A stretch of 21,242 nucleotides of DNA from a virus. Positions 1,275-21,242 of the stretch are shown one piece after another (position 1 is the stretch's first letter; the number at the start of each line of letters is the position of its first letter). The stretch is from the IMG/VR virus record IMGVR_UViG_3300044225_005156, positions 1-21,242 of that record; one strand, written 5' to 3'. The notes beneath the pieces were generated by a model. It did no database searches. It was not told the DNA's origin and saw only the letters and a program-made list of their open reading frames with translations. Both the position numbers and the translations under genes were made by a program.

Positions 1275-1618
1275 TGGAAGAATCTCTTGAAAAAGCATTA
1301 GAATTTTCAAATTATTCTGCTACTCTGAATAACCAAAAGAGGATTCTATATGAAAAGTATCAAGAAAACTTAATTACGTACTATCTTGGTGGCACATTTA
1401 CAGCTAATAGAGAGCTTATTAATTTTTGTACAATGCTTTTATCTAAAACATCATCTACTTTAATTATTGATGACAACAAAACTCCTATCGAAATAGATGA
1501 TTTGGAAGACTTCACAGAATCACTACTACACAAATATACAGAAGCTACAAATCAGTATCATGAGGAGTACAAAACTCTCAGCACTAAACGTAGTGTAGAA
1601 GGTTTAGTAGATGTCTAA
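1274..1618 (+). CDS. Small conserved phage protein beside the fibre gene
   Basis: This is a 114-residue soluble, acidic and probably mainly helical protein. It has a central segment (about 45-80) with a GGTFTANRELINF turn and a strand-like SSTLIIDD run followed by PIEIDDLEDF. The C-terminal half (about 80-105) looks like a charged helix with YTEATNQYHEEY. From memory, similar proteins of about this length accompany tail-fibre genes in cyanophages, but I know no assigned function; a structural or assembly role is an inference from position. The start is supported by TAGGAG seven bases upstream. The stop overlaps the next gene by 8 nt (ATGTCTAA), suggesting translational coupling to the glycosyltransferases downstream. 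Confidence 0.6.
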   Translation: MEESLEKALEFSNYSATLNNQKRILYEKYQENLITYYLGGTFTANRELINFCTMLLSKTSSTLIIDDNKTPIEIDDLEDFTESLLHKYTEATNQYHEEYKTLSTKRSVEGLVDV

Positions 1619-2441
1619 TGGAATCTTATGCTTTGCTAATAATAATGGTTCTATTAATTATATAAAACAAGCAGTAGAACTTGCTTCCCGTTCAAAAAAA
1701 TATTTAAATTTACCTGTTTCAATTGTAACATCTACATTTGACAAACTTGATATTCAATATCATGATGTTTTTGATAAGATTATTCAAATTGATGATTCGC
1801 AACACAATGAAAAAAGATATTATGATGGACAACAACGTAAGACAACACTGAATTTTAAAAACAATGAAAGACATAATGCTTTTAATTTAAGTCCTTATGA
1901 TAAAACTTTAGTATTAGATACGGATTATATAATATGTAATGATAAATTTAAACACTCCTTTCAAACAAATGATAATTTTCAAATTTATAGACATGGAGTA
2001 GATTTATGTTCCTGGAGAAATTACAAAGAGTTTGATTACATCAATGACAAGGGTATTCCTTTTTATTGGGCAACATGTTTTTATTTTACAAAAAGTCAAG
2101 AAAGTAAAATATTTTTTGATCTATTAAGACATTTGTATGATAATTGGGACCATTACAGTGACGTATATGATTTGGCAAGTAGAAATTTTAGGAATGATCA
2201 TCTTTTCAGCATGGGTATACACATTATGAACGGATTTCAAGAAGGAGATTGGGCTAAAAATTTACCTGGAAAAATGTATTATACACTAGATAGGGATATT
2301 TTGTGTAAAATAAAAGACGACAGTCTAACATTTCTCATACAAAAAGAAAAATTATTTAATGAATATATTCTTTCTACAGTCAAGGGTATGAATATACATG
2401 TAATGAACAAGTTTAGTTTGGAGAGAAGTTTAAATGTCTAA
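1611..2441 (+). CDS. Glycosyltransferase-like protein (GT-A, DTD motif), copy 1
   Basis: This 276-residue protein has the layout of a small GT-A fold enzyme. A first strand and helix (GILCFANNNGSINYIKQAVELA, residues 4-25) is followed by a second strand (VSIVTSTFD), and hydrophobic TLVLDTDYI carries D103-T-D105. A DxD motif in that setting normally binds the metal and nucleotide-sugar diphosphate. It lacks membrane segments. The next gene has the same layout (D88-T-D90), and the two are probably tandem duplicates. The start overlaps the upstream stop by 8 nt. Family assignment rests on motif and fold order, as in GT8-like phage enzymes; donor and acceptor sugars are unknown. Its position beside fibre genes suggests virion or host-surface glycan transfer. 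Confidence 0.6.
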   Translation: MSNGILCFANNNGSINYIKQAVELASRSKKYLNLPVSIVTSTFDKLDIQYHDVFDKIIQIDDSQHNEKRYYDGQQRKTTLNFKNNERHNAFNLSPYDKTLVLDTDYIICNDKFKHSFQTNDNFQIYRHGVDLCSWRNYKEFDYINDKGIPFYWATCFYFTKSQESKIFFDLLRHLYDNWDHYSDVYDLASRNFRNDHLFSMGIHIMNGFQEGDWAKNLPGKMYYTLDRDILCKIKDDSLTFLIQKEKLFNEYILSTVKGMNIHVMNKFSLERSLNV

Positions 2442-3231
2442 AGGTTATATTATGATAGCTACTGGAGAAGAGCATATTCAACAAGCCTATCTATGTGCTA
2501 AGAGTATAAAACAAACACAAAATATCAAAAACGTTTCTTTGCTTACCGGTGATCAAGTTTCTGATCAATACAAGCATGTGTTCGATCATGTAATTGCTAT
2601 TCCTACATCAGATAGAAACACACAAAACTTCTACAGAACAGATATTAGATGGAAAGCGTATCATGAAACTCCATATCAAGAAACGGTATTACTGGATACT
2701 GATATGCTTTTTTTAGATGACATAAGTTATTGGTGGTCGTACTTTAAAAATTATGATTTATGTTTTACAAGTAATGTGAGAACATATAAAAATAATCCTG
2801 TTACTAGTCATTACTATAGAAAAGCGTTTATTCAAAATAATATTCCTAATATATACTGTGCGTTTCATTATTTTAAACAAAATGATACAGCTTTAAGATA
2901 TTATTTAAAACTTAAACAAGTTTGTAGAAATTATAAGGAATATTATAAAATATATGTTCCTAAATTTACACCCAAAGTAAGTAGTATGGATTTAAATCAT
3001 GCTATTACTTTATTAGATGAAGATATCAAGAATTATATTTTTAAACCAGCAAGTTTTGTTCATATGAAATCTCATGTCCAAGATTGGGAAACTACACAAG
3101 AAGATTGGACAGAAACAATTCCGTTTTATTTCAACGCAGAAAAACAACTAAAAATTGGAAATTACTTACAACATGGCATAATACATTATACCAAGAATAA
3201 TTTTTGTGAAAGGATATTAAATGAATATTAG
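2434..3231 (+). CDS. Glycosyltransferase-like protein (GT-A, DTD motif), copy 2
   Basis: At 265 residues this protein repeats the plan of the preceding gene: a first strand GYIMIATGEEHIQQAYLCA, a second strand with VSLLTGDQ, then TVLLDTDMLFLDD with D88-T-D90 followed by aromatic residues. The DTD run is a candidate metal and nucleotide-sugar site. A late FVHMKSH (about 208-214) could supply the C-terminal histidine many GT-A enzymes use for metal binding. The start overlaps the previous stop by 8 nt using the same ATGTCTAA junction as the copy before it. It is probably a diverged duplicate with a different acceptor or donor. No signal peptide is seen, so it should act in the host cytoplasm. 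It could be a fold relative without transferase activity. Confidence 0.6.
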   Translation: MSKGYIMIATGEEHIQQAYLCAKSIKQTQNIKNVSLLTGDQVSDQYKHVFDHVIAIPTSDRNTQNFYRTDIRWKAYHETPYQETVLLDTDMLFLDDISYWWSYFKNYDLCFTSNVRTYKNNPVTSHYYRKAFIQNNIPNIYCAFHYFKQNDTALRYYLKLKQVCRNYKEYYKIYVPKFTPKVSSMDLNHAITLLDEDIKNYIFKPASFVHMKSHVQDWETTQEDWTETIPFYFNAEKQLKIGNYLQHGIIHYTKNNFCERILNEY

Positions 3232-3739
3232 AACCAAACAATACGTATCTTTTGATAAAAACACAGGTGAAATTTTTGGTATAGGACCAAGCATTAACGA
3301 GTCATACAATCATATTGAGGTTACAAACGAGCAAGTTGAGCCTTTTCAAACACTTAAAGAAAATTTTATTAATTGGAAAGTAATTTACAACAAAAGAGAT
3401 AAAAATTTTCAGTTAAAGAAAAATGATGATGAAGCGCCACAAGAATTTTTGCTTAATGAATTAACTGCCCCCAAAGATAATTTCCATGAAATAGAATTTG
3501 TAGTGGACAAGAGTAAAGGTGAATGTTATTTAAACACAATAGATACACCAAAAAACTTAAATGAAGTTAGTTTTTATGTAACCAAAAAAGGAGATCCTCA
3601 TTTCTTATTAAATACTTTTACTTTTAAAATAGGATCAAAGGAATCATTTCCTTTTAAAAACATGGAATCTTACAGCGTATACACGAAAAATATATTTGCT
3701 GATTGCGTAACAAGGGAAACAGATGAAAATTATTTGTAA
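3221..3739 (+). CDS. Unrecognised phage protein, 172 aa
   Basis: I do not recognise a functional family. The N-terminus (about 6-45) has a QYVSFDKNTGEIFGIGPSIN pattern followed by a strand-like SYNHIEVTNEQV. This resembles the start of small beta-rich proteins seen near fibre and chaperone genes in marine T4-like phages. The rest alternates charged loops and strands (EIEFVVDKSKGECYLN, EVSFYVTKKGDPHFL) and looks like a beta-sandwich. There is no signal peptide, membrane helix or catalytic motif. The start overlaps the glycosyltransferase stop by 11 nt, with AAAGGA nearby, so the gene is probably translated with it. A structural or fibre-associated role is only an inference from location. Confidence 0.45.
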   Translation: MNIRTKQYVSFDKNTGEIFGIGPSINESYNHIEVTNEQVEPFQTLKENFINWKVIYNKRDKNFQLKKNDDEAPQEFLLNELTAPKDNFHEIEFVVDKSKGECYLNTIDTPKNLNEVSFYVTKKGDPHFLLNTFTFKIGSKESFPFKNMESYSVYTKNIFADCVTRETDENYL

Positions 3740-3899
3740 ACATCTTGGACCGTATTATGGTATCCAAAAAGCATTTCCTTGTAGGGCTTTTACAAACGAA
3801 TTTGTAGGAGAAATGTGGATTGAAATAGACGAAAAATATGAAACACTAATATACTTGATGTTTGGAGACAGCGTGATTAGGAGTGATTATGAAAATTAA
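3723..3899 (+). CDS. Small ORF, 58 aa, unknown
   Basis: An ATG at 3723 overlaps the end of the preceding gene by 17 nt and opens a 58-residue frame. It ends in TAA at 3897-3899, overlapping the next gene's start by 11 nt. It fills the only real gap in this block, which favours it being a gene. The product starts MKIICKHLGPYYGIQKAFPC, has two cysteines (5 and 20), a W-I-E-I-D-E strand and an acidic tail. I recognise no family. The preceding bases (GGAAACAG) give only a modest ribosome binding site. The packing is as tight as for the larger genes, but its reality rests on spacing alone. Confidence 0.4.
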   Translation: MKIICKHLGPYYGIQKAFPCRAFTNEFVGEMWIEIDEKYETLIYLMFGDSVIRSDYEN

Positions 3900-4794
3900 A
3901 ATAGCAGAACTAGATATTATTTTTTTAAGTTATGACGAACCTAATGCTGAAAAAAATTGGGCTGATTTGAAAAACAAAGTTCCATGGGCAAAACGTGTTC
4001 ATGGGATACTAGGTTCAGATGCCGCACATAAAGAGTGTGCTAGAATAAGTGAAACAGACAGATTTGTGACAGTTGACGGTGATAACACAATAAAACAGGA
4101 ATTTTTAGATCAAGTCTTAGACTTTGACACCCATGCTAATTTAGAAAAAAGTGTTATAAGTTGGTGTGGACAAAATATTATTAACGGCCTAATGTATGGA
4201 AACGGTGGATTGAAATGCTGGCCAAGAGAATATGTTTTAAATATGAAAACACATGAGAATGCTGATCCATACAATGTTCAAGCCAAGGTAGACTTTTGTT
4301 GGGACGCACAATACATACAGCAGAATAGTTGTTTTAGTTTGACTCATAATAATTTTACTCCTAAACAAGCCTGGCGAGCAGGTTTTAGAGAAGGTGTTAA
4401 ATTATCTCTTAATAGAGGAGAAAGGGTAGCACATTCTGAGTTTTTAAAAGGACATCCTAAAAATTTAAACATGTTGTATATTTGGACAATGGTTGGTAGT
4501 GATGTGAAAAATGGCGACTGGGCTATTTACGGAGCAAGAGAAGGTTTAGAAATGACAATGCTTTCGGATTGGGATTACGTTAATGTAAGAGACTTTACAC
4601 ATTTAGACGAGCTATGGGCAAATAGAGACGAATTACCAGAGGATATTTTACATAATGAGATATGGAATATAGGTAACAACTTAATTAATCAATTACAATT
4701 ACCTATTTCTACTCAACCGCTGAGCCAAGAACAAAGTATTTTTTTTAAAACTGTTAATCAAAACTATGGCAGGGTAATTAATAAAGATGCATGA
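3889..4794 (+). CDS. DGD-motif glycosyltransferase-like protein, copy 1
   Basis: This 301-residue protein begins with a strand, DIIFLSYDEPNAEKNW (9-24), followed by a KRVHGI segment. The hydrophobic RFVTVDGDNTI has D63-G-D65 in the position of a GT-A DxD metal site. I recall this LSYDEPNAE...VDGDN pattern in marine phage proteins annotated as putative glycosyltransferases, but the family is poorly characterised. A GTG at 3883 opens the frame two codons earlier; ATG at 3889 is preferred because AGGAG at 3878-3882 then sits six bases upstream instead of touching the start. The C-terminal half has Trp-rich and Asn-rich stretches of unknown role. It overlaps its paralogue downstream by 8 nt. Sugar specificity cannot be read. 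Confidence 0.55.
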   Translation: MKIKIAELDIIFLSYDEPNAEKNWADLKNKVPWAKRVHGILGSDAAHKECARISETDRFVTVDGDNTIKQEFLDQVLDFDTHANLEKSVISWCGQNIINGLMYGNGGLKCWPREYVLNMKTHENADPYNVQAKVDFCWDAQYIQQNSCFSLTHNNFTPKQAWRAGFREGVKLSLNRGERVAHSEFLKGHPKNLNMLYIWTMVGSDVKNGDWAIYGAREGLEMTMLSDWDYVNVRDFTHLDELWANRDELPEDILHNEIWNIGNNLINQLQLPISTQPLSQEQSIFFKTVNQNYGRVINKDA

Positions 4795-5476
4795 TATAGT
4801 TTTTATAAGTTATGGAGAACCAAACGCAGATGAAAATTATAATGATCTTTTCAAAAGATTTAACGTAAAAGGAGTTTTTGGAGATAGAGTCAAAAGGATA
4901 GACGGAGTAAAAGGAATACACCAAGCACATATTGAAGCGGCAAAAAAGGCAAGCACTCGATATTTTTATGTAGTAGACGGTGATGCTGTCATTACAAAAG
5001 AATTTAATTTTGATTACTTTGTTACTTCACAAAATGAAAATATTGTTCATGTTTATAAAAGCATGAATCCTGTAAATAATCTAACTTATGGTTATGGTGG
5101 AGTGAAATTACTACCAAGAAAATTAACTAAGAATATGAATGTAAACAGTTTTGATATGACAACCAGCATTTCAGATAATTTTATTGTGTTTGACAAAGTA
5201 AGTAATGTAACAGCTTTTGATACTGACTCATTCAACACATGGAAAAGTGCTTTTAGAGAATGTGCTAAATTAAGTAGTAAAGTGATAGATAGACAACAAG
5301 AAGGAGAAACAAATGAAAGACTTAAAATATGGACCACTACAGCTAATGGAAGATTTCGTGAAGATGCGATTCGAGGTGCTAATGCTGGTATGGAGTTTGG
5401 CTTTTCTAGGGGGTCTGATCTTCGGTTGATAAATGATTTTGATTGGTTAAAATCTAAGTTCGATGATTGCCAATAA
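4787..5476 (+). CDS. DGD-motif glycosyltransferase-like protein, copy 2
   Basis: This is a shorter (229-residue) relative of the preceding protein. Both share I-V/I-F-I/L-S-Y-x-EPNA-x-x-N at the N-terminus, an HGI/DGVKGIHQAH-type segment and FYVVDGDAVI with D64-G-D66. Both also share a later W-K/R-A-x-FRE motif and a near-terminal ANAGMEFG/AREGLEM motif, so the pair is probably a tandem duplication followed by loss of about 70 residues here. The start overlaps the upstream stop by 8 nt (ATGCATGA), suggesting coupled translation. The 3' end overlaps the convergent methyltransferase-like gene by 23 nt. It is presumably cytoplasmic and acts in surface-glycan assembly; this is inferred from motif and neighbours only. 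Confidence 0.55.
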   Translation: MHDIVFISYGEPNADENYNDLFKRFNVKGVFGDRVKRIDGVKGIHQAHIEAAKKASTRYFYVVDGDAVITKEFNFDYFVTSQNENIVHVYKSMNPVNNLTYGYGGVKLLPRKLTKNMNVNSFDMTTSISDNFIVFDKVSNVTAFDTDSFNTWKSAFRECAKLSSKVIDRQQEGETNERLKIWTTTANGRFREDAIRGANAGMEFGFSRGSDLRLINDFDWLKSKFDDCQ

Positions 5477-6098
5477 CAGTATATCTTTCATATCCGTTTG
5501 ACATTTTATAAGTGTCAGCAAACCATATCTTAGTAAGTCCAGTCTTTTTTATAAATTCATCTAAATTATTTGAACAATTAATATGTTGATCTTTTACATG
5601 AAACATATTATTACTTTGTAAAGCAAATACACAGTTAGGCGTGTAATCTTTATTTGCTATTAAATCAGGCAGATCTGCCATGTGTTCACTTGATGTATTA
5701 ATTACCAATCTTACGTCTTTGTCTTTATAGTATGATGTTTCTATTTTATCTTTAACATCTCTATGTTTGAAAAAAACTTTGTGTTCAAGTTCTAATGCCT
5801 GTGTATATTTCCTGGATAAATCTAATGCTTTTTCGTCCATGTCAATATTTGTAATGTGTTCTATGTTTAAAAACTTGGTCAATAAAAGATTAATTAAAGG
5901 ATAGCCATACCAGCCACCGTACAAATGTATTTTTAAATCATTGAATTTTTTCATTTCATCTAAAGGAATACAATCAACAAGATGTATTTTTGATTCCATT
6001 TGATCAGGACCTACGCTATAAAGTATGTCTTTTATTTCATGACCATGTTGTATAGCTTCCCACCATACTTTCCAATAATTTTTATTAATTACTTCCAT
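5454..6098 (-). CDS. SAM-methyltransferase-like Rossmann protein
   Basis: This is a 214-residue protein. Its central DLKIHLYGGWYGYPLINLLL (54-73) sits where a class I methyltransferase has its SAM-binding glycine loop, followed by strand EHITNIDMDEKAL with acidic D86 and D88 at the ribose-binding position. The loop GGWYGYP is not a standard GxGxG, so activity is uncertain. Later a VINTSSEHM stretch (about 131-139) fits the motif IV region. TAGGAG lies about ten bases before the ATG. It is the last gene of the minus-strand block and starts 10 nt before the carbamoyltransferase stop, so it is probably co-transcribed with that gene. It could methylate the carbamoylated sugar; a non-enzymatic Rossmann protein is the alternative. 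Confidence 0.5.
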   Translation of the reverse strand: MEVINKNYWKVWWEAIQHGHEIKDILYSVGPDQMESKIHLVDCIPLDEMKKFNDLKIHLYGGWYGYPLINLLLTKFLNIEHITNIDMDEKALDLSRKYTQALELEHKVFFKHRDVKDKIETSYYKDKDVRLVINTSSEHMADLPDLIANKDYTPNCVFALQSNNMFHVKDQHINCSNNLDEFIKKTGLTKIWFADTYKMSNGYERYTVIGNHRT

Positions 6099-7600
6099 AT
6101 CAAATAATCTCCTAACACTAATAAATCTAATCCGCTATTGTTAAAAGTTTTCAAAGCGTCTTGTGGAGTTTCTACAATAGGTTCCTGGCAGTTGAAACTG
6201 GTATTTAATAACATTGGTATTCCAGTGTGTTTATAGAAAGCATTAATCAAATCATAATATCTTTCATTGAATTGTCTATTAACAGTTTGTATTCTAGCAG
6301 TTCCGTCTACATGAGTTATACCTGGTACTGTATCTACCTTTACAGGCATAATTCTTGACATATATGGGCTAGGTTGGTTAGTATCAAAAAAATCTTGATA
6401 GTGTTCTTCTAACACACTAGGCGCAAATGGTCTAAAATCTTCACGTTTTTTAATTCTATTGTTTATGATATCTTTTATATTTGGATTTCTTGGATCAGCA
6501 AGAATGCTTCTATTGCCTAATGCCCTATTTCCGCTTTCTGATTTTCCTTGATACCATCCTACTATTTTTCCATTTGCTATTTCTTCTGCTACTTTTGTGA
6601 TTAATTTTTCAAAAGGCCATTTTTCAAAATTCATTCCTGTGAATAAATCTGCATCTATTTTTTGTTCTTTGCCAGCAAATACGCTTGGCTTGTGTATATT
6701 ATCATTTAAATAATAATCGGCGTGCATATATGTACCTAATGCTTGTCCTTCATCTCCCACAGCGGGAGGAACGTGTACATTTTTGTAATGTTTTGTTAAT
6801 TCTTCATTCATGTAACCATTGTATGCTACTCCTCCTGCTACACAAATGTTGTCGCAAGTTTTAAGTGGATACACATAATTTTTTATAAGTTCAATAGTTT
6901 TAAATTGTAATGTATATGCTATATCTTCCCTTTTGTTATTTTTAATTACTTCAGGAGCAAAGCTGGGTAGCGTGTGATTAGGGTTCATTAAATAAGTTTC
7001 TATCATAGCATCAGTTTGATAATTGTATTTTCCATATCCAGCTAATCCCATTACTTTGCCTGCGTCAAGATATCTAAATCCTATATCTTGTGCTAATCTA
7101 TTCCACAGTCCTCCAATTGGGATCTTCTTAGAGAGATCTTTAATTATACCATCTTTACCAATAAAAATACAATTAAACTGCCAACCTCTTCCATCTATAG
7201 CTAATATGTCAGATTCTGTGAAGCCACTAGTAAGAAAGGCATAGGTAGCATGTGATTGATGATGATCAATGTAATACACACATCCTCTATGAAACGGTTC
7301 CCATAAACTTTTTGGTTTAAATTTTAAAAAATCATTATTATAAAAATTTTCGTTGATCAAATCTATAACAAACTCTTGTCCTAAATTTGACACAGTAAAT
7401 GCAAATATATTATTTTCATCTCTACTTTTATATTTGTCTAACACAAATTCATTAAAGAATTTTTTACTAGGATTAGGGTCATGTGACCATTCATAATTAA
7501 GATTATGCTTTATTCTATTATGACGTTCAATTTGGTTATGGAAAGTACCGTCATATGTGTTATGGTCATGAATATTTAATGCTACTGAGTAGATGTTCAT
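6089..7600 (-). CDS. Carbamoyltransferase, NodU/CmcH (TobZ) family
   Basis: At 503 residues this is close to full length for O-carbamoyltransferases that transfer the carbamoyl group of carbamoyl phosphate, via a carbamoyl-adenylate, to a hydroxyl on a sugar or antibiotic. The N-terminal half is the Kae1-like domain, with metal-type DHHQSHA at 112-118, ILAIDGRGW at 132-140, AGGVAYN at 255-261 and VGDEGQALGT at 281-290. The C-terminal half is the YrdC-unlike domain, with GKSESGNRALGNRSILADPR (352-371) and REDFRPFAPSV (386-396). It ends with MLLNTSFNCQEPIVE. All these blocks are intact, so the enzyme should be active. It overlaps the upstream radical SAM gene by ATGA. The acceptor is unknown; neighbouring glycosyltransferases suggest a sugar. 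Confidence 0.9.
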   Translation of the reverse strand: MNIYSVALNIHDHNTYDGTFHNQIERHNRIKHNLNYEWSHDPNPSKKFFNEFVLDKYKSRDENNIFAFTVSNLGQEFVIDLINENFYNNDFLKFKPKSLWEPFHRGCVYYIDHHQSHATYAFLTSGFTESDILAIDGRGWQFNCIFIGKDGIIKDLSKKIPIGGLWNRLAQDIGFRYLDAGKVMGLAGYGKYNYQTDAMIETYLMNPNHTLPSFAPEVIKNNKREDIAYTLQFKTIELIKNYVYPLKTCDNICVAGGVAYNGYMNEELTKHYKNVHVPPAVGDEGQALGTYMHADYYLNDNIHKPSVFAGKEQKIDADLFTGMNFEKWPFEKLITKVAEEIANGKIVGWYQGKSESGNRALGNRSILADPRNPNIKDIINNRIKKREDFRPFAPSVLEEHYQDFFDTNQPSPYMSRIMPVKVDTVPGITHVDGTARIQTVNRQFNERYYDLINAFYKHTGIPMLLNTSFNCQEPIVETPQDALKTFNNSGLDLLVLGDYLIWK

Positions 7601-8442
7601 ACTGTTGTTTTTTCCAATGCTAGTTTTTCTAAAATTTCTAACCTCCTAGCTTCTGGTCTAGGAGGAATAATATCCATACAAGTTGTACAATATTTTTCAA
7701 AGTCAAATAATTTGTATTCCATCATTTTTTGTATATTCTCTACAGTTATATCAAATTCTCTAGAACCGTTGATTGCTTTTCTGCTACAATGTCTAATCTT
7801 TTGTATTTCAAAATCAAATACAGGAACCTGTGGAAACTTGGCACATATTCTACGCTCTATTTCTGGTGCTTGTATTATATCATGGTCACTATGAAAATCT
7901 GGTGATCTAGAATTGTATTCTTTAAATTCAGTGTTTTCGTGATCTATCTCTGTAAGATCAAACCTATCTCTGTATTTAAAATAGCCAGGCGTTTCTATTA
8001 TTAAGTTATAATTATTTTTGTCATTTAAAGGTAAGAAAGGCCAATTGCCTAATTTTTCAATTCTATCTTCATAAAAATCTAAAACTAAATGTTCGATGTA
8101 TATTATTTCAGGATCTTCAAGAATATGAGGATAAAACTTTCTTACCAAACTATTTGATAAGACTTGTGGAATTAAGTTATCATGCTTTTTTATTTCTGCT
8201 ATGATTTCATCTAAATTTTTTATCAATCCAGGTTCACCTCCTAGTAAACATATCCTTGTCTTGTAGGGTGATAATCCTTTCAATATGGTTCGCACTAAAT
8301 CCATGTCAGTGTGTAGATATCTCATTTCAAGTGTCCAAGCAGTACAGTAGTGGCAGGACTTATTACAGGATTTTGATAGATAAAAATCCACTGTTCTGTA
8401 TTCTGAACCTTTTAATTCTTTTAATGATATTGGTTTTCTCAT
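7597..8442 (-). CDS. Radical SAM protein with extra C-terminal cysteines
   Basis: From ATG at 8442 the protein has 281 residues. CNKSCHYC gives C26, C30 and C33, the CxxxCxxC ligand set for the 4Fe-4S cluster that cleaves SAM, and LLGGEPGL (66-73) supplies the GGEP SAM-contact motif. Four further cysteines (200, 219, 252, 255) lie toward the C-terminus and could hold an auxiliary cluster, as in SPASM or twitch-domain enzymes; that is inference. The frame extends to a TTG at 8460. The ATG is preferred because an AATAAATA promoter-like box abuts the TTG and would place transcription start near it. It is the first gene of a three-gene block with a carbamoyltransferase. The reaction is unknown; sugar or peptide modification is possible. 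Confidence 0.8.
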   Translation of the reverse strand: MRKPISLKELKGSEYRTVDFYLSKSCNKSCHYCTAWTLEMRYLHTDMDLVRTILKGLSPYKTRICLLGGEPGLIKNLDEIIAEIKKHDNLIPQVLSNSLVRKFYPHILEDPEIIYIEHLVLDFYEDRIEKLGNWPFLPLNDKNNYNLIIETPGYFKYRDRFDLTEIDHENTEFKEYNSRSPDFHSDHDIIQAPEIERRICAKFPQVPVFDFEIQKIRHCSRKAINGSREFDITVENIQKMMEYKLFDFEKYCTTCMDIIPPRPEARRLEILEKLALEKTTV

Positions 8443-8460
8443 ATACAACTCTAGCTTCAA

Positions 8461-12068: not shown

Positions 12069-12073
12069 GGAGG
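12069..12073 (+). promoter_or_regulatory. Ribosome binding site fixing a TTG start
   Basis: GGAGG at 12069-12073 is the strongest Shine-Dalgarno sequence in the window. It lies five bases before a TTG at 12079. Another in-frame TTG at 12067 would place this sequence inside the coding region, so 12079 is the likely start. Confidence 0.65.
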
Positions 12074-12078
12074 ATATC

Positions 12079-14828: not shown

Positions 14829-15394
14829 AAGAACCATATTTAACAGAGCTACCTGGATTCATAGATTTAGATTATATGAAAGGCATAGCAGATAATATGC
14901 TTACTGATGAATGGAAAAGTTTATCAGATGTTGAAGCACTAGCAATATATACAGATGTGAAGGTTGTTGATGTAGAAGCAGATGATTATCTAAAGGGTAT
15001 AAGAGACAAGTATCCTAAATTAAAGAATCATATTAAATTAATGAAATGTAGTAAAGGATCTTGGCCAATACATATTGATGCTCATAGGAGTTCCGCAATA
15101 AGCATACCTGTTACTAACTGTGACAATACTAAGACCACAAAGTTTTTTACTGGTGGAGAGATAGCAGAAGAAATTTATGACCAATTCGGGGATAAAAAAG
15201 GCATATGGCAATCCAACGAATGGTTGACTTATGTTGAAAATGCTGAACTTGCTTGTGAACATGCTACAGTTATGCCTACTTTAATAAACACTAAAGTACC
15301 CCATCAAATAGTTAACAGTACTGATTCTATAAGAGTAATTTTTAGTTGGGCATACGAGGCGCCGTACGCAGAGGCAGTTGCGGATCTTACCTAA
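14825..15394 (+). CDS. 2OG-Fe(II) oxygenase-like protein
   Basis: This 189-residue protein has PIHIDAHRSSAISIPVTNCD giving H83-I-D85 as the first two iron ligands. PTLINTKVPHQIVNSTDSIRVIFSW supplies H160 and R170, so the His-Asp-His triad and the 2-oxoglutarate arginine are all present with normal spacing. The N-terminus (LTELPGFIDLDYM) is a typical lead-in of these phage oxygenases. It overlaps the upstream oxygenase by ATGA and its TAA shares one base with the next gene's ATG, so the run is tightly coupled. Substrates of such enzymes range from protein side chains to sugars and amino acids. Context favours a tailoring step on whatever the nearby aminotransferase and radical SAM genes make. 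Confidence 0.75.
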   Translation: MKEPYLTELPGFIDLDYMKGIADNMLTDEWKSLSDVEALAIYTDVKVVDVEADDYLKGIRDKYPKLKNHIKLMKCSKGSWPIHIDAHRSSAISIPVTNCDNTKTTKFFTGGEIAEEIYDQFGDKKGIWQSNEWLTYVENAELACEHATVMPTLINTKVPHQIVNSTDSIRVIFSWAYEAPYAEAVADLT

Positions 15395-16017
15395 TGCCAA
15401 CACAATATCCGGTCAATAAAAATCTCACAGATTATGAGATTAGGTTACCTAATTTTTGGAATAAAATTTATCACGAAGGAAATCCTGCTTGGGGTAAAGC
15501 ACCGGCTAATGTATTAGAAAAGTTTATAAATTTTTTTCCTAAAGGAGGAAAAATTTTAGATGTAGGTTGCGGTGAAGGCAGGAACAGTATTCCTTTAAGT
15601 AAAAAAGGCTTTACAGTACACGGTATAGATATTTCAAGAACAGCAATTAAAATTGCTGAAGAAAAGAAAAGTGATTGTACATTTGATTGTATAGATATAT
15701 TTAAAATTGACACAAATGAAAAATATAATGTCATCATAGACTTTGGTTTATATCATTTTGTACCTCACGAATTAAGGCAAAAGTATGCTGATATTATTTA
15801 CAAAATGTTAGATCAAGAAGGAATATATTGTAATCAATCCGGTAGGTTAGAAAATAAATTAGGTAGCGTGGATTATACTCCTCCACAGCTAGAAGAACAA
15901 GATATGTTAGATACATTTAAAAATTTTGATATTTTATTATTAGAAAAGGAGACTTTACCTTCTTTTAGTGATTATTGGGCATATCCTTGTTGGAATATGG
16001 TGGCAAAAATAAAATGA
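15394..16017 (+). CDS. Class I SAM-dependent methyltransferase (TehB/thiopurine type)
   Basis: The 207-residue product begins with an FWNKIYHEGNPAWGKAP stretch (21-37) typical of the small-molecule methyltransferase group around TehB. GGKILDVGCGEGRNSIPL (51-68) is a textbook SAM-binding motif I. VHGIDIS puts the ribose-binding acid at D79, and IDFGLYHFV follows as motif IV. The set of motifs is intact. The open frame extends back to 15346, but ATG at 15394 is used because it overlaps the preceding TAA by one base, consistent with the packing of the block. It overlaps the next gene by ATGA. It probably methylates a small molecule; the TehB resemblance does not mean tellurite resistance. Confidence 0.8.
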   Translation: MPTQYPVNKNLTDYEIRLPNFWNKIYHEGNPAWGKAPANVLEKFINFFPKGGKILDVGCGEGRNSIPLSKKGFTVHGIDISRTAIKIAEEKKSDCTFDCIDIFKIDTNEKYNVIIDFGLYHFVPHELRQKYADIIYKMLDQEGIYCNQSGRLENKLGSVDYTPPQLEEQDMLDTFKNFDILLLEKETLPSFSDYWAYPCWNMVAKIK

Positions 16018-17510
16018 ATTACGCAGTAATTTTTAATGAAAGTGGAGACGATATCATTAGACGTACTATGGGTGCGTATAAAATTGCTGATATGATGCGT
16101 TCGCAATCATGGACTGTTGAGGTAATAGATTGGTTATCTAGGTGGACAGATAAGGAAGTGAAACAATTTGTAGATTCTTTACCTTATAAAGTTGATTTAT
16201 TTGCTTTTGGTAATCTATGGATGAACGACGAAATGGTCCTAAATAAAATTAATTTTTTAAAAAAAGAATATCCAGGTGCTAAAATATTGATGGGAGGACC
16301 CAAACCTTATCAAATGGATTATGGAGCAGACTGTATGGTATTCGGTTATAGTGAACATGCCATTACTCCTGTGTTAGAATGGATGTTTAGAGGCGGACCA
16401 GAGCCAATAGGAAAATATCCTGATTGGGCACCTAATAGCTTATTAATAGATGCCAATCATCATTATAAAGGTTTAGTAATAGACAAGTATGATTGTAATT
16501 ATCACCCTAATGATTTCATAGAACCACACGAAGCCCTTACTTTAGAATGTACTAGGGGTTGTAGATTTAAATGTAAGTATTGTAATTACGCTTTCCTAGC
16601 TGTTAAAGAAGATTACAGCAGAAGCTCTGATGATTTGTATAACGAATTAATGACAAACTATGAAAAATGGGGAACTACTAATTATATTATCGGTGATGAT
16701 ACTTTTAATGACAGAGATAATAAAATAGAGAAATTAGCAAAAGCAGTAGAAGTTTTACCTTTCAAGGCTAATTTTACTTCTTTTATTAGAGCTGATTTAT
16801 TGATATCAAGACCACAGCAAATAGAATTACTTTGTAGAGCAAGGGTATGGGGACATTTTTATGGTATAGAAACATTTCATCCATTGGCCGCTAAATGTAT
16901 TGGAAAAGGAATGGATCCAAAAAGAGTAAAAGAAGGGTTACTATGGATTAGAGATCAATTCAATAATAGGCTTGGATTGTATAGAGGTACTATTGGTATG
17001 ATAGCAGGGTTGCCATATGAACCGGTTAGTCATTGGTACGAAAGCATTGATTGGCTCAATAAGAATTGGGATAGCTATTGGTATTGGGGATTACATATAA
17101 GCAAAGATAAGGATAACACCACACAAAGTGATTTTAGCGTAGACGCAGAAAAGTACGGTTACGTCGAAACAAAAAACAAAGAATTATTAGATTGGGCATA
17201 TAGCAAAGGATATAATAATCCTGATTCAAAAGGAAGGCTGAATAATAAATTAGATAATAGACCGTTAGTATGGGAAAGCGAATGGAGTAACTTTAGAGAA
17301 GCTACAGAATTCAGCGAAATGTTTATGGAAAAATATTTTTTTAAACAAAAACTATCTAATTTTGATATGACAGAATACATAGCAAAATTGCCTTTGGACG
17401 AACTGCTAGGCATGACACTAGATGAAATGTATATAAAAAGAGGATACAGTAAAATAAATAGGCAAAGAATCGAAGAATATAAACAAAAAAAATTAAATTT
17501 ATTTAAATAA
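16014..17510 (+). CDS. B12-binding-domain-type radical SAM protein
   Basis: Starting at ATG 16014, which overlaps the methyltransferase stop by ATGA, the protein has 498 residues. The N-terminal 120 residues look like a Rossmann-type cobalamin-binding-like domain: NYAVIFNESGDDII, VDLFAFGNLWM, AKILMGGPKPYQ, then CMVFGYSEHAI. The B12 histidine motif DxHxxG is not obvious, so cobalamin binding is uncertain. LECTRGCRFKCKYCNY follows, with C183, C187 and C190 as the CxxxCxxC iron-sulphur ligands and an extra C179. A TIM-barrel-like region with IIGDDTFND and FYGIETFHP runs to about 330. The charged C-terminus ends KQKKLNLFK. Relatives methylate unactivated carbons or rearrange carbon skeletons. The substrate is not visible here. 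Confidence 0.8.
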   Translation: MNYAVIFNESGDDIIRRTMGAYKIADMMRSQSWTVEVIDWLSRWTDKEVKQFVDSLPYKVDLFAFGNLWMNDEMVLNKINFLKKEYPGAKILMGGPKPYQMDYGADCMVFGYSEHAITPVLEWMFRGGPEPIGKYPDWAPNSLLIDANHHYKGLVIDKYDCNYHPNDFIEPHEALTLECTRGCRFKCKYCNYAFLAVKEDYSRSSDDLYNELMTNYEKWGTTNYIIGDDTFNDRDNKIEKLAKAVEVLPFKANFTSFIRADLLISRPQQIELLCRARVWGHFYGIETFHPLAAKCIGKGMDPKRVKEGLLWIRDQFNNRLGLYRGTIGMIAGLPYEPVSHWYESIDWLNKNWDSYWYWGLHISKDKDNTTQSDFSVDAEKYGYVETKNKELLDWAYSKGYNNPDSKGRLNNKLDNRPLVWESEWSNFREATEFSEMFMEKYFFKQKLSNFDMTEYIAKLPLDELLGMTLDEMYIKRGYSKINRQRIEEYKQKKLNLFK

Positions 17511-18201
17511 TTTGTTTTTCTATTTGCTCGTCAATGTGTAAATCTAATTTTGGTGCTAAATTAATATTCAAAACAAATCTATCAACTTCGTTATGTTGAT
17601 TGACAGCACCGTGAGGTTTGCCTACATCTAAATATCTTAATTTTTCCGATCTCTCGAAATGATAATCTTCCCCTAAAACCCGCCACACGTAATCAACTCC
17701 AGGAGTGATACATAAATGTAATCTTATGCCTCTATACCAAGGATAGTCTAAATGACTGGTTTGCTCTCTACTTAAAAGATTATGTCCTGCTTCTAGTTTT
17801 ATTAATCTTATTTGTGTGACATTGCCTCTAAATTTACTGACCACCTCATCTAAGTAATCAAACCAAGCAGGAGTTTTTTCAGTGTATTCTAAATCTATTT
17901 GTTCATTCTTATTACTGTGGGTGTGTACATTACTAGATAGGCCTTCTGATAACGGCTCTGTACTAGCCTTTTTACATTTAAAACATAAACCGTAATAACC
18001 AGGAACTTTTATAACGCCTGCCCTACCAGCATCAACAGTATAGGGTATCATTTGAAAATTTTGTAAAGTATTTTTAATGCCTTCATCTAATTTGTTTAAA
18101 TCTATGTTGTATTTGTCAGGTAGATCGGTAACGTTAAACTTGCTTATTTGATAATCAGTGTGGGGTTGATATAATTCTTGCCATTTGTTTACATCATACA
18201 T
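17503..18201 (-). CDS. 2OG-Fe(II) oxygenase-like protein (AspH-type)
   Basis: This 232-residue protein has RLIKLEAGHNLLSREQTSHLDYPWY with H150-L-D152. Later YLDVGKPHGAVNQHNEVDRFVLNINL gives H197 as the distal ligand and R208 as the 2-oxoglutarate arginine, so the active-site set is complete. The G-x-H-x-L/D layout and R-L-H-L-C-I resemble aspartyl beta-hydroxylase-like oxygenases. It is the only minus-strand gene between two plus-strand blocks, with its own promoter-like box and leader; its 3' end overlaps the convergent radical SAM gene by 8 nt. Two cysteines in GLCFKCKK (72-79) might form an extra metal or disulphide site. Its separate promoter could allow different timing from the plus-strand oxygenases. 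Confidence 0.75.
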   Translation of the reverse strand: MYDVNKWQELYQPHTDYQISKFNVTDLPDKYNIDLNKLDEGIKNTLQNFQMIPYTVDAGRAGVIKVPGYYGLCFKCKKASTEPLSEGLSSNVHTHSNKNEQIDLEYTEKTPAWFDYLDEVVSKFRGNVTQIRLIKLEAGHNLLSREQTSHLDYPWYRGIRLHLCITPGVDYVWRVLGEDYHFERSEKLRYLDVGKPHGAVNQHNEVDRFVLNINLAPKLDLHIDEQIEKQII

Positions 18202-18239: not shown

Positions 18240-18247
18240 TATAAATA
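18240..18247 (+). promoter_or_regulatory. T4-type late promoter (exact TATAAATA)
   Basis: TATAAATA at 18240-18247 equals the T4 late-promoter consensus. It lies in the divergent gap, 15 bases before the ATG at 18263, so the transcript leader would be about 10 nt. It would drive the radical SAM, GMP reductase and ligase genes. The ATG at 18250 leads only to an immediate stop (TAA), so translation from it is not expected. Confidence 0.6.
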
Positions 18248-18262
18248 CTATGAGATTCATAC

Positions 18263-19195
18263 ATGATTAATGATTTTGATATATCCAAACTAAATTACTA
18301 CGAACAAGAAGCAGAAGACTGTACATTTTTTGACGTGGTAGCTGACATTACGCACAGGTGTAACATGACCTGTAAAAATTGTTATCTACCTAACAGAACC
18401 TTTCCTGACATGGAGTTCGAAAAATTTAAGGCTTTTATAAAAAGGTTAAAGCGTCCAGTAATGATTAGACTGGTTGGTGCTGAGCCAACTCTACATCCAC
18501 AATTATTAGACTTTATTAATACAACGTTCGAGCATGGACATAATGCTATTCTAGTAACGAACGGTTTAAGATTGTCTAGTGCTAACTTTGTAAAAAAAAT
18601 AAAAGATACAGGACTAAAACATTTATATATTAGTCTAAATGGCATAGACAATGACGATTGGTATCAAGAAATTGACGAGATGCGTTGTGCTGATAAAAAA
18701 ATAAAAGCAGTAAAGAATACAAAAAATGATTTCAATCTAAACTTTGGAATCATAATTGTAAAAGGAATAAATGAGGAAGTACCTTCTAGAGCACATGATT
18801 TAATTAAAAGAGAAGCTATTCCTGATGTAACTTTACGTTTTAAAAACGTTGGTCAGCTAGGTAGATATCAAAAAGAAAAAGACGAAAATTTAAAAATGAA
18901 AGACATGGTAAAACTAATAGGATCACAATTAGGTTATACTGAAGATTATATTTGGAGCCATTATGGTAAGCCACATAGATATAGTAAAGTAGTAGAACCT
19001 GGCACTATTGAATTTCCTTTGGATCCTAATAACAAAGATAGATACAAAGGGCAATGGGTAAAGATCACTGATTGGGATACAGACAACGAACAAGGTATTC
19101 CAGATCCTGGAAGCATCAGACGAGGAAGAATTACACAAGAATGGAAAGTAGCACCGTTCTATGAACATGCTAAAATAAACGAAAATGGATATTAA
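18263..19195 (+). CDS. Radical SAM protein (MoaA/PqqE-like core)
   Basis: This is a 310-residue protein. DITHRCNMTCKNCYLP gives C33, C37 and C40 of the CxxxCxxC iron-sulphur motif. IRLVGAEPTLHPQLLDFI carries the GAEP SAM-contact variant, and ILVTNGLRLS and LYISLNGIDNDDW follow as the next barrel strands. The layout resembles the short MoaA-like radical SAM core without a cysteine-rich C-terminal domain: I see only one further cysteine (MRCADKK) and no SPASM motif. The reaction is unassigned. It starts the rightmost plus-strand block behind an exact TATAAATA, and its stop overlaps the GMP reductase start by 11 nt. The other two radical SAM proteins here have different lengths and extra domains, so all three likely catalyse different steps. 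Confidence 0.8.
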   Translation: MINDFDISKLNYYEQEAEDCTFFDVVADITHRCNMTCKNCYLPNRTFPDMEFEKFKAFIKRLKRPVMIRLVGAEPTLHPQLLDFINTTFEHGHNAILVTNGLRLSSANFVKKIKDTGLKHLYISLNGIDNDDWYQEIDEMRCADKKIKAVKNTKNDFNLNFGIIIVKGINEEVPSRAHDLIKREAIPDVTLRFKNVGQLGRYQKEKDENLKMKDMVKLIGSQLGYTEDYIWSHYGKPHRYSKVVEPGTIEFPLDPNNKDRYKGQWVKITDWDTDNEQGIPDPGSIRRGRITQEWKVAPFYEHAKINENGY

Positions 19196-20225
19196 AGTTA
19201 AAGAAGTCACTAAATTAGATTTTAAAGATGTCTTGATAGAACCACGTGAAGCATCTAAATCACTCACACGTAAAGATATAAACATAGAGATTGACTGGTT
19301 AGATACTACAGTACATCCTATAGCTATTGCTAATATGACAAGCACTGGCACATATAAGATAGCAAACATACTAACACCAATGCGTTTTTTCACTTTTATA
19401 CACAAAGAATATACGTTAGAAGAACATTTAAACAACCTTCAAGAAATAAAGGATAGAAGATATATTGCCATTACAAGCGGTGTACGTCCCAAGGACAGAG
19501 AAAAGACTATAAAAATTATATCTCATTTTCCAGACGTAGGGATTATTAATATTGATATTGCTAATGTGTATGCTAATGTTGAAGGAATGGTAGAAACAAT
19601 AAAACAATTTAGAAAAGAATTTCCACACATAAAAATTTGTGCTGGAAACATAGCAACTCCGTCAGTAATTAAAAAACTAGCAATGGCAGGAGCAAATTTA
19701 ATAAAGGTAGGTGTAGGCAGTGGAGCGGCTTGTAAAACGAGATCAGAAGTCGGAGTCGGTGTACCACAATTGAGTGCTATAATGGATTGTTATCCTGAAG
19801 CAACAAAATTTGGTTTGGATATTGTTTCTGATGGAGGTTGTGTGACTCCGGGTGATGTTGCGAAAGCAATAGGAGCAGGAGCCAAAATTGTTATGATAGC
19901 GGGTATGGTAAGTGGTAGTGATGAGTGTGATAACCAGGTAGAAATAGATGGAAAACACTATGTAAATTTATATGGATTGGGCAGTACCAAAATGTACAAT
20001 AAAACAAATCCAGACGAAATGGATTACAAACCCAACGAAGGTAGAGACTTGTTAATACCCTGTAAAGGGCCTATTAAACGCATTTTAAAGCAGTTACAAG
20101 GGGGTTTAAGGAGTACATGTACGTATGTAGGCGCAGAACACATAAACCGCTTATATGAGCTTTGCACGTTCGTTAAAGTGAATAATCAAATCAATAATAG
20201 TTTGGAAAGATATGAAAATGATTGA
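19185..20225 (+). CDS. guaC: GMP reductase (IMPDH/GMPR family)
   Basis: At 346 residues this matches the usual GMP reductase length and lacks the CBS insert typical of IMP dehydrogenase. GVGSGAACKTR holds the catalytic cysteine C183 with T185 in the position conserved in GMP reductases, and VGVGVPQLSAI follows as expected. SDGGCVTPGDVAKAIGAGA with MIAGMVSG is the phosphate-binding region. NEGRDLLIPCKGP and GGLRSTCTYVGA match the C-terminal family signature. The enzyme converts GMP to IMP using NADPH, with loss of ammonia. The normal second residue of the C-T-T loop is Lys here. It overlaps its neighbours by 11 and 14 nt. It might return guanine nucleotides freed by glycosyl transfer or host breakdown to the purine pool; that role is inference. 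Confidence 0.85.
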   Translation: MDIKVKEVTKLDFKDVLIEPREASKSLTRKDINIEIDWLDTTVHPIAIANMTSTGTYKIANILTPMRFFTFIHKEYTLEEHLNNLQEIKDRRYIAITSGVRPKDREKTIKIISHFPDVGIINIDIANVYANVEGMVETIKQFRKEFPHIKICAGNIATPSVIKKLAMAGANLIKVGVGSGAACKTRSEVGVGVPQLSAIMDCYPEATKFGLDIVSDGGCVTPGDVAKAIGAGAKIVMIAGMVSGSDECDNQVEIDGKHYVNLYGLGSTKMYNKTNPDEMDYKPNEGRDLLIPCKGPIKRILKQLQGGLRSTCTYVGAEHINRLYELCTFVKVNNQINNSLERYEND

Positions 20226-20922
20226 TTTTGGAAAGATTTTGGAAGAGGGTGTAACCATTTCTAGTAGTGGCACAACAGGTCCATCCAAAGAAATTTTTAG
20301 GTCTCCTGAAAACCTAAAGGCGGCAAATAAGGTAGCCGTAGAAGCCCAAAAGATATCTGTGTCAAGTAAAATTTTGACTGTTACAAGAATGACCCATGCT
20401 GGTGGCTTGTTAGCACAAAGTTTACCTGCTTTCAGTGTAAACGCAGAAGTGACAGTTCTTAATAAATTTAATCCTTTTACTTTTTTAAAAAATTTCCAAC
20501 ACTATACTCATACGTTTTTAGCACCTGCTCAGATGACAGCTTTGATGAACACAAAAGGATTTACAGATTGTGATCTATCTGGAAAAAGAATATTAGGTGG
20601 TAGTGATCCTGTATCTTGGGAAATGATAGAGGCGTTTGTTAAAAGAGGAGCAATAGTACAACCTAATTGGGGAATGAGTGAAATAGGACCTATTACTATA
20701 AACATAGAATTCGATAACTTAGAATATGTAGAATATGTAAAACAAAGATGTTTTGAAGGATATACAATTTTAGGAAACAAATTTTACTGTGATTGGAAAA
20801 TAGTTGACCATGAACTTTATGTAAAAGGAGATACTTGTATATACGATGATTGGTTTGCCACCGGTGACATAGTTGCTTTAGACATGGGCAACAGAATGTA
20901 TTATTTAGGTAGGAGAGATTAA
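20212..20922 (+). CDS. Minimal ANL-type AMP-forming ligase (short)
   Basis: This protein has 236 residues against about 450-600 for ordinary acyl-CoA synthetases or adenylation domains. It nevertheless carries the core motifs in order: the ATP loop SSSGTTGPSK (17-26), a THAGGLL region, PNWGMSEIGP (151-160, motif A5), FATGDIVAL with T217-G-D219 (A7), and GRRD (233-236, A8) as the last residues. The usual 150 or so N-terminal residues and the whole C-terminal domain with its catalytic lysine are absent. The ends are clean start and stop codons within a tight overlap, so it does not look like a broken gene. It may activate a carboxylate as an acyl-AMP for a partner carrier or transferase. GGAAAG precedes the ATG; a second ATG lies two codons in. 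Confidence 0.75.
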   Translation: MKMIDFGKILEEGVTISSSGTTGPSKEIFRSPENLKAANKVAVEAQKISVSSKILTVTRMTHAGGLLAQSLPAFSVNAEVTVLNKFNPFTFLKNFQHYTHTFLAPAQMTALMNTKGFTDCDLSGKRILGGSDPVSWEMIEAFVKRGAIVQPNWGMSEIGPITINIEFDNLEYVEYVKQRCFEGYTILGNKFYCDWKIVDHELYVKGDTCIYDDWFATGDIVALDMGNRMYYLGRRD

Positions 20923-20923
20923 A

Positions 20924-21242
20924 ATGGAAGACTGTATATTTAAATTTTCAATGGAACATGATAAAGAAAAATTATTAGAGGAATCTAAAGTATTTAGATA
21001 TCAACCTATTAATAAGGAAACTCTTACATGGATATATAACGAAGGAATAGAATACAATGATGATCTATCATTTATTGACAAAGACGACAAATGGTGGACA
21101 GAGCAAGAATCATGGACAGCATCAAGAGAACCAAAAGTAACAGATTTTGATCTGACAGAAAGTAGACGTCTTAAAGCATTATTTCAAAAAGTTTGTGATA
21201 CTGATGATATAAAAGCTAGTTTTCTTACACAAAAACAAGTCT
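20924..21242 (+). CDS. Unrecognised protein, 5' part only (runs off window)
   Basis: ATG at 20924 opens a frame with no stop through base 21242, giving 106 residues of an incomplete protein. AGGAGAG (20911-20917) lies seven bases upstream, a good ribosome binding site, and the upstream stop ends two bases before this ATG. The visible part is acidic and Trp-rich (TWIYNEG, DKWWTEQESW), with no membrane segment or catalytic motif. The KASFLTQKQV near the edge faintly resembles the strand before the HxD motif in the neighbouring oxygenases. A fifth 2OG oxygenase is therefore possible, but the defining residues would lie outside the window. Confidence 0.5.
   Translation, partial: MEDCIFKFSMEHDKEKLLEESKVFRYQPINKETLTWIYNEGIEYNDDLSFIDKDDKWWTEQESWTASREPKVTDFDLTESRRLKALFQKVCDTDDIKASFLTQKQV

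Follow-up and report, generated by a model that had tools for sequence, protein, structure and literature searches.

Three separable enzyme blocks with fixed frames and swappable slots beside the tail-fibre genes of a viral contig

Why should a phage carry an almost unbroken run of biosynthetic enzymes next to its tail fibres, and do these enzymes form one pathway? We addressed this question for the IMG/VR contig IMGVR_UViG_3300044225_005156, a genome fragment whose whole length of 21,242 bases is the window analysed here. From position 1611 to the right edge, ORF calling gives 26 closely packed open reading frames (ORFs), and 1.7% of the window lies outside ORFs; the dense, nearly gap-free run of enzyme genes next to tail-fibre genes that a preliminary description had reported is thus present. 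That description took the run for a single pathway of about 20 genes. We found instead that it consists of three separable blocks, A, B and C, each with a fixed frame of genes and a slot whose contents can be swapped.

We tracked 29 window proteins by tblastn in 82 loci and clustered the ORFs of 24 records (longest-ORF rule; single linkage at E 1e-8, half coverage and 50 bits), omitting G002 as a near-duplicate of record G001; because the clustering was by single linkage, the methyltransferase cluster mixes subtypes. Block-B loci were collected starting from the radical S-adenosylmethionine (SAM) protein of that block, keeping the best 80 of 289, and block-C loci starting from a class-IV aminotransferase (AT4), of which 53 were found. 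For block A we started from a glycosyltransferase family, gtA, and kept the best 80 of at least 593 loci. All counts are of loci and are not independent, since many of the loci come from samples that overlap or from phages that are nearly identical; a contig edge also cuts many loci short.

For the most part, blocks B and C are found without each other, and we rejected the single 20-gene pathway for this reason, though the GT-B-fold glycosyltransferase of block B is present in 11 of the 53 block-C loci. The DegT aminotransferase and the carbamoyltransferase of block B were each found in 7 of the 53; the carbamoyltransferase was in 7 of the 39 loci with 9 kb upstream, and in 4 of the 24 with 9 kb on both sides. 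When we picked 18 C-bearing records for flanks without a carbamoyltransferase, B's radical SAM gene was found in one, its frame broken by one stop, while two controls matched. The genes of block B are also rare in block-A loci: among the best 80, 7 have the carbamoyltransferase and 4 have DegT, and the carbamoyltransferase is in 6 of the 55 that extend at least 9 kb past the first gtA gene. B's radical SAM was in none of 24 A-bearing records picked for having no carbamoyltransferase in the flank, with two controls again matched. In the stretches read, block B is missing from record G004, which has A, and from G022, which has C; the phage Mosig has B but not A. Blocks B and C do meet in the group of the window, in G003, and in loci L239-L241 and L259. 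In these last loci the divergent junction of the window recurs, with B on one side and the 2-oxoglutarate (2OG) oxygenase and GNAT-like genes of C on the other, and the frame genes share 49-65% protein identity. This recurring junction is the best evidence of a functional link between B and C in some phages, and speaks against their full independence. The record of L241 (G440) has, at 42031-42861, a block-B radical SAM gene with one in-frame TAA.

The frame of block B in the window lies on the minus strand. It comprises a GT-B-fold glycosyltransferase as the first core gene (10269-11141), a DegT/DnrJ aminotransferase (9193-10272; PF01041, E 7.9e-87), a radical SAM protein (7597-8460; PF04055, 5e-10), a NodU/TobZ-type O-carbamoyltransferase (6089-7600) and, last, a methyltransferase-like protein (5454-6098; Methyltransf_31 at 1.9e-4 and Spermine_synth at 1.5e-4, below cut-off). 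Among the best 80 of 289 loci, the carbamoyltransferase was present in 79, DegT in 74, the methyltransferase in 66 and GT-B in 61. Restricting the count to the 34 loci with full flanks (9 kb or more upstream, 5 kb or more downstream) gave DegT 34, carbamoyltransferase 34, methyltransferase 33 and GT-B 30. In 32 of them the genes found keep the same order, in 32 they share a strand, and 29 have the complete set of five in order. The start-to-start distance from the radical SAM gene to the carbamoyltransferase is 799-860 bases in 73 of 79 cases. Other distances vary, from 541 to 4,168 bases between GT-B and DegT and from 971 to 8,010 between DegT and the radical SAM gene; that is, inserts enter block B at two places. 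DegT lies on the far side in four loci. The inserts include extra radical SAM genes, a small Cys-rich family, which in 23 of 24 cases adjoins one radical SAM family, and two families, cluster 12 (nitroreductase-like) and cluster 37 (PP-loop-like), whose names come from motifs and the annotation of Mosig, the scanned member having no Pfam match. In the window the insert is a plus-strand SGNH/GDSL-like hydrolase (8514-9209; FGCS and DDLH motifs), and ahead of the block stands a nitroreductase-like protein (11138-12016, minus strand) whose PSKQ motif is common with cluster 12.

How far can these proteins be named? The NodU/TobZ carbamoyltransferase family combines an N-terminal Kae1-like and a C-terminal YrdC-like domain. 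The window protein matches both PF02543 (2.6e-18) and PF16861 (1e-67) over cut-off, as well as phrog_1601 (8.5e-114), and by these domains belongs to the family, with carbamoyl transfer as its predicted activity; it is related to PDB 7xb6, GdmN, TobZ and the novobiocin enzyme, with the His motif aligned. The top PDB match of DegT is 7b0d (E 3.6e-62), named glutamine--scyllo-inositol transaminase. The radical SAM protein has the CxxxCxxC motif and a conserved C-terminal Cys, invariant in 14 homologues. For the GT4-like glycosyltransferase, the predicted structure (pLDDT 87.1) matches PimA with Z 14.7 and a root-mean-square deviation (rmsd) of 4.3 over 247 aligned residues, two Rossmann-type domains being matched along the chain. 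The same fold list includes GT-B-fold UDP-GlcNAc 2-epimerases at Z up to 12.6, so the fold does not fix the reaction.

Block C has a frame on the plus strand. It is headed by a 2OG oxygenase of the Asp/Asn-beta-hydroxylase family (12067-12696; PF05118, 6.8e-5, 23.2 bits against a cut-off of 22.6), present in 27 of the 53 loci. There follow a GNAT-like acyltransferase (12693-13253; 46 loci), a small DUF6356 membrane protein (13237-13494; PF19883 at 1.3e-4, just under cut-off; all 53 loci) and AT4 itself (13484-14323; PF01063, 6.2e-34), and, beyond the slot, a GMP reductase homologue (19185-20225; PF00478, 4.5e-60; 27 loci) and a short ANL adenylating enzyme of 236 residues (20212-20922; PF00501, 4.4e-13; 41 loci). 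The sole PDB match of the GNAT-like protein is a GNAT (E 0.0021); PF00583 was matched in 8 of 14 members of its family, at best with 0.028, and not in the window's protein. Aligned to PDB 2a7r, GMP reductase 2, the GMP reductase homologue keeps the Cys of the signature. The ANL enzyme starts near the P-loop motif and is without the usual N-terminal part, and homologues nonetheless occur in 41 of the 53 loci. In L250-L253 and L258, DUF6356 and the class-IV aminotransferase stand as a bare pair with no other frame genes recognised, perhaps a minimal form of block C.

The slot of block C lies between AT4 and the GMP reductase gene. In the window it holds two 2OG oxygenase-like genes (14286-14828 and 14825-15394, the latter by its HxD motif), a methyltransferase (15394-16017; Pfam over cut-off), a B12 radical SAM protein (16008-17510; PF04055 over cut-off), a further 2OG-like gene (17503-18201, minus strand; HxD motif) and a radical SAM protein with a MoaA/TrsS-like core (18263-19195, plus strand; PF04055, 7.7e-15; NCBIfam matches below cut-off). 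In 14286-14828, residues H82, D84, H142 and R153 are invariant in ten homologues; Pfam gave no match for it, and its profile found no 2OG enzyme in PDB. Elsewhere the contents differ. Of the 41 AT4 loci that have an ANL gene downstream, 14 have an empty slot (gap of -7 to 80 bases), and in 15 the slot holds the B12 radical SAM gene, accompanied by the MT22 methyltransferase in 11 of the 15; over all 53 loci this radical SAM gene is present in 17. In 5 of the 41 the slot holds a halogenase-like flavoprotein with 24-25% identity to a family in which the scanned member matches PF04820 (tryptophan halogenase) at 2.7e-60; the flavoprotein's GGGSAxW-like start and WMWEVP stretch resemble flavin-halogenase motifs. 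Pfam scans gave no halogenase match in the window. In L234, one of the loci with an 'empty' slot, a closer halogenase homologue (73%) lies elsewhere, between the GNAT-like gene and DUF6356.

Block A, whose GT-A enzymes are soluble, moves together with the fibre genes, which are counted in it. Its other genes in the window, all on the plus strand, are two glycosyltransferases with DTD motifs, the gtB pair (1611-3231), g05 (3221-3739), and two members of the gtA family (3883-4794 and 4787-5476), the first with a DGD motif; a small protein, g02 (1274-1618, plus strand), stands between the fibre and glycosyltransferase genes. Among the best 80 of at least 593 gtA loci, gtB was present in 78, g02 in 75, a gene labelled TAIL in 69, g05 in 65, the fibre in 62 and the methyltransferase in 48. 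The model of the first gtA protein (pLDDT 84.6) has its best fold match at Z 10.1 over residues 8-156 (136 aligned), and its fold matches are limited to the N-terminal half. The gtB pair has no Pfam match, and 2434-3231 matches phrog_1903, of unknown function, at 2e-7; we tentatively read the pair as GT8-like. The slot of block A lies between the first two gtA genes. A twitch radical SAM gene occupies it in 47 of the 57 loci with at least two gtA genes and is missing in 10; counted anywhere in the locus, it is in 77 of the best 80. One scanned member of this family is over the NF033640 cut-off. Record G021, 92-100% identical to the window over the compared proteins, has the gene in its slot.

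The scattered, unconserved single acquisitions that the preliminary description had set against its own view are therefore ruled out, since the genes co-occur, in fixed order, in divergent phages. Who are these phages? Reading the lineage from relatives, we consider it plausible, short of an even chance, that the window is the enzyme-rich part of a host-interaction island in a T4-like (gp23-bearing) marine myophage. The island of relatives lies between the fibre genes and an Mtd_N-type gene. Record G001 (145,741 bases), whose island has 71-98% protein identity to the window, carries a T4 gp23 that is 70-76% identical to those of Sinorhizobium phage Phosso, Vibrio 2.275.O and Pseudomonas PA5oct-type large phages. 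G424 and G425, which have all or part of the C frame, carry another type of gp23, with 37-38% identity to the first; the nearest named phages to that of G424 are S-SKS1, Melnitz and HTVC008M. Together with Mosig and the Mosig-like contig L133, the two types place blocks B and C in two or more T4-like lineages. A pelagimyophage identity, first guessed from Mosig, was dropped: gp23 of G001 is nearest the Phosso and PA5oct type, and the window has no marker gene. A portal search gave matches in 2 of 13 records. In a tree built from six flanking proteins of 14 records, the C carriers G001, G003, G022 and G023 are dispersed, each grouping with phages of other cargo, and supports are 0.96-1.00 for three pairings and the G022 group. 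Identities inside block C roughly track those of the flanks, so transfer and an old inheritance with repeated replacements are equally possible; ANL is an exception, with 82% between G003 and G022 against 73% between G001 and G003.

Recent capture of the genes from a bacterium is unsupported. In a bacterial and archaeal collection of 84,980 species, searched with two peptide patterns, B's radical SAM was met at one locus, the phage contig L133, and among 385 alphaproteobacterial genomes the radical SAM and GT-B profiles matched only the genome holding that contig. L133 (PAHC01000009.1) is a Mosig-like phage contig with a complete block B inside a metagenome-assembled genome labelled Rhodobiaceae, and is likely mis-binned. 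The B12 radical SAM and GNAT-like proteins had no match in the 385 genomes, a search with no positive control, and searches of bacterial genomes could miss distant cellular relatives. In named phages, only Mosig matches B's radical SAM and GT-B; AT4 matches are only 24% identical, and the B12 radical SAM, gtA and GNAT-like proteins have no match. Within the searches made, B's radical SAM and GT-B thus appear only in phage DNA.

The ratio of nonsynonymous to synonymous substitution rates (dN/dS) was 0-0.36 over 26 genes against G021 and 0.015-0.17 against G001 over the 24 genes with unsaturated dS, and the 26 compared genes look to be under purifying selection. The late-type promoters of the preliminary description hold up in their placement. 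The motif TATAAATA, which we take to be the T4 late promoter, occurs at 12049-12056 on the minus strand, 33 bases before 11138-12016, and at 18240-18247 on the plus strand, 16 bases before 18263-19195. It is not over-abundant in the window (2 seen, 6 expected). Both window copies are directly upstream of a same-strand gene, as are 70 of 97 copies over 24 records that include near-identical ones, against 6.4% of random positions.

What, then, might the enzymes make? We favour, with a probability of roughly 0.4, the reading that these enzymes, made late, assemble a variable group that is aminated, carbamoylated and acylated and attach it, probably to the virion. Judging from enzyme families, the radical SAM protein of block B would oxidise or otherwise activate a position on a sugar or cyclitol, DegT would aminate it, GT-B would transfer or extend the aminated unit, and the carbamoyltransferase and methyltransferase would cap the product. 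In block C, AT4 may make an amino or keto acid, which the slot enzymes would methylate, hydroxylate or, in other phages, perhaps halogenate; the short ANL enzyme could then activate the acid and the GNAT-like enzyme place it on an amine. The late-promoter-like motifs and the linkage to the fibre suggest that the products decorate virion tail proteins, which would be made at the same time. With the frame held constant, an exchange of slot genes would alter the decoration, much as in O-antigen tailoring loci.

Several observations count against this proposal. B and C mostly occur apart, and so do not establish a shared product. The radical SAM of block B matches BtrN only in part of the core (E 0.0035, 66 profile positions), and viperin and peptide-modifying enzymes score nearly as high. 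Pfam scans recognised no gene for making nucleoside diphosphate (NDP) sugars in the window, so block B would have to draw its precursors from the host. The slot between the two gtA genes (junction 4780-4800) is empty in the window and in near-identical records. Against the distant G003, dN/dS reaches 0.50 (methyltransferase 5454-6098), with dS near saturation. Finally, related islands with transporters (TctA, ABC permease, binding protein) fit host metabolism better than fibre decoration.

The same enzymes might act elsewhere. They could change the surface glycan or lipid of the infected host and so block superinfection by rival phages, a role that we regard as rather doubtful. Polymorphic cargo is typical of surface loci, genes of the fatty-acid (FA)-desaturase family occur in sister islands, and the Asp/Asn-hydroxylase family includes lipid hydroxylases, which we count on the same side. 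A complete O-antigen or capsule locus has NDP-sugar synthesis, an initiating transferase, a flippase and a polymerase. In this contig, a fragment, these components were unmatched in Pfam scans; together with hydropathy, the scans recognised no flippase, polymerase, initiating transferase or membrane glycosyltransferase in the window, where the sole clear membrane segment is that of 13237-13494. Late promoters would, moreover, leave little time for remodelling a surface. A host-surface role has been proposed, in the text of the respective papers, for the glycosyltransferases of the host recognition cluster (PMC7029224) and for cyanophage clusters (PMC7824862). The latter text also holds the proposal of Iyer et al. 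for S-SSM6a, which favours a different outcome, namely that B and C make diffusible, natural-product-like small molecules acting on competitors or the host. Such molecules would suit the secondary-metabolism enzyme types (TobZ/GdmN-type carbamoyltransferase, halogenase-like proteins, ANL), the KedN5-like B12 radical SAM of sister islands, below model cut-off, and the transporters in some of those islands. Pfam scans recognised no carrier protein, thioesterase or exporter in the window, and a late diffusible product would be of little gain to a lytic phage; we think this outcome unlikely.

Might the slot enzymes (radical SAM, 2OG and nitroreductase-like) instead modify phage proteins directly, with block A glycosylating fibres and no sugar pathway at all? 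SPASM/twitch radical SAM paralogues are many, up to 10 per 40-kb stretch, the small Cys-rich family stands beside one radical SAM family in those 23 of 24 cases, and 12067-12696 belongs to an Asp/Asn beta-hydroxylase family. DegT, the carbamoyltransferase, AT4, GMP reductase and ANL are, however, normally small-molecule enzymes, and direct modification is in our judgement quite improbable. Least of all do we expect a hypervariable region that gathers unrelated host genes whose functions are not coordinated. Between the structural flanks, islands do differ widely in gene content, but two frames keep a fixed order over diverged phages under purifying selection, the genes of block B were unmet in bacteria, and the co-occurrence counts largely refute this view. 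A role in DNA modification was discarded, as no base-hypermodification enzyme was recognised in the window.

Returning to the favoured reading of a variable group on the virion, we can also ask who owns the chemistry. Lipopolysaccharide (LPS)-like islands in phages are known and are usually read as borrowed host genes. Two enzyme frames conserved over diverged phages, with middle genes swapped as units, raise the idea of modular biosynthesis owned by the phage, which stands against hypervariable cargo or host mimicry; block B, tested widely, was not met in bacterial genomes. More tentatively still, we suggest for large marine myophages a combinatorial, phage-evolved chemistry in which two frames, met so far in viral DNA only, each have a slot for methylation, oxidation, halogenation or nothing, giving each phage its variant of a decoration or metabolite, a 'chemical serotype' chosen by the virus and not by the host.

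Parts of this arrangement have precedents. The host recognition cluster of pelagimyophages, as its paper presents it (Zaragoza-Solas et al. 2020, PMC7029224), is a hypervariable island of the structural region that carries tail fibres, glycosyltransferases of the GT8 and other types, and radical-SAM cassettes; it lies between VrlC and gp14, genes that the window does not reach. The window likewise has fibres and several glycosyltransferases; gp23 of its relative, by contrast, is nearest large phages (Phosso, PA5oct) and not pelagimyophages, and the main text of that paper describes no fixed frames with slots and does not use the word 'aminotransferase' (PMC7029224). Mosig EXVC030M (MT647606) is, according to the text of its report, a pelagimyophage isolated on Ca. 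Pelagibacter ubique (PMC7892664). It shares with the window the gene order GT-B, DegT, radical SAM, carbamoyltransferase and methyltransferase, with 53-58% identity for the first four; the annotations there are of molybdenum-cofactor, UDP-Ara4N and carbamoyltransferase enzymes. Mosig differs in that gtA, AT4 and the GNAT-like protein find no match in it. For the jumbo cyanophage S-SSM6a, the text of Iyer et al. (2021, PMC7824862) gives a 10-gene cluster with carbamoyltransferases, a halogenase and 2OG oxygenases, with a halogenated sugar/amino-acid metabolite or capsule decoration predicted. Phage carbamoyltransferases and 2OG oxygenases are common to both. The best carbamoyltransferase match in S-SSM6a has 33% identity, the main text of the paper uses neither 'radical SAM' nor 'aminotransferase', and the combination of carbamoyltransferase, halogenase and HemK-like methylase is not found in the window, which has no halogenase and no reported HemK match; halogenase-like genes do occupy the homologous slot of five other loci. 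Carbamoyltransferase, halogenase and 2OG genes are also listed for cyanophages in the text of Sullivan et al. (2010, PMC3037559), and core glycosyltransferases for another aquatic jumbo lineage in that of Perez-Hernandez et al. (2025, PMC12619734). In the parts of the literature found, the frame-and-slot organisation was not met; it may still be published. Family-level parallels exist for DegT, the carbamoyltransferase and, weakly, the radical SAM protein with aminoglycoside-type pathways, to which BtrN, the 2-deoxy-scyllo-inosose (DOI) aminotransferase and TobZ belong. An aminocyclitol or aminoglycoside pathway has a cyclitol synthase and a DOI-type aminotransferase; in contrast, Pfam scans recognised no cyclitol synthase in the window, and the radical SAM match is to part of the core.

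The preliminary description judged the chemistry broader than that of a simple O-antigen-modifying phage locus, and the conserved set of biosynthetic and tailoring enzymes, wider than a gtr-type O-antigen locus, bears this out. Its gene names stood firmly for the carbamoyltransferase (both domains), the DegT and class-IV aminotransferases, IMPDH/GMP reductase and the AMP-binding protein, all over the Pfam cut-off, and for three radical SAM proteins, which combine PF04055 over cut-off with CxxxCxxC, one of them also having a B12-binding match below cut-off. Other names fared less well. Of the two methyltransferase-like proteins, 15394-16017 passes the Pfam cut-off and 5454-6098 stays below it, as do the SGNH hydrolase (PF00657, E 0.007) and the nitroreductase (PF00881, E 0.027). 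One of four named 2OG oxygenases (12067-12696) is just over the cut-off, and two depend on the HxD motif. Of five glycosyltransferases, predicted folds agree with GT-B for 10269-11141 and with GT-A for the N-terminal half of 3883-4794, leaving 1611-3231 with DxD motifs and one phrog match. The GNAT-like and DUF6356 proteins were absent from that description.

Sister islands carry further cargo. L095/L099 (G006, G008) have ABC permease, solute-binding protein, ATP-grasp and PP-loop genes; others have a TctA transporter, a tryptophan halogenase or FA-desaturase-family genes; and G004 (L090-L091) and G009 (L100-L101) each have 10 radical SAM genes within 40 kb. The window itself has no near DNA match among named phages, no tRNAs or Rfam matches, and two short weak repeats. 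At its right edge, the ORF g28 (20924-21242, plus strand) is cut. At its left edge, on the plus strand, positions 2-1238 hold the last part of a tail-fibre protein (2-307) and, at 324-1238, a second structural protein on the fibre side, with PF11962 at 3.6e-5, below cut-off, and phrog matches including tail fiber; in relatives, homologues of these genes adjoin fibre proteins. Beside the fibre genes of G001 (L085-L131) lies an ORF of 4,986 residues, probably a giant structural protein.

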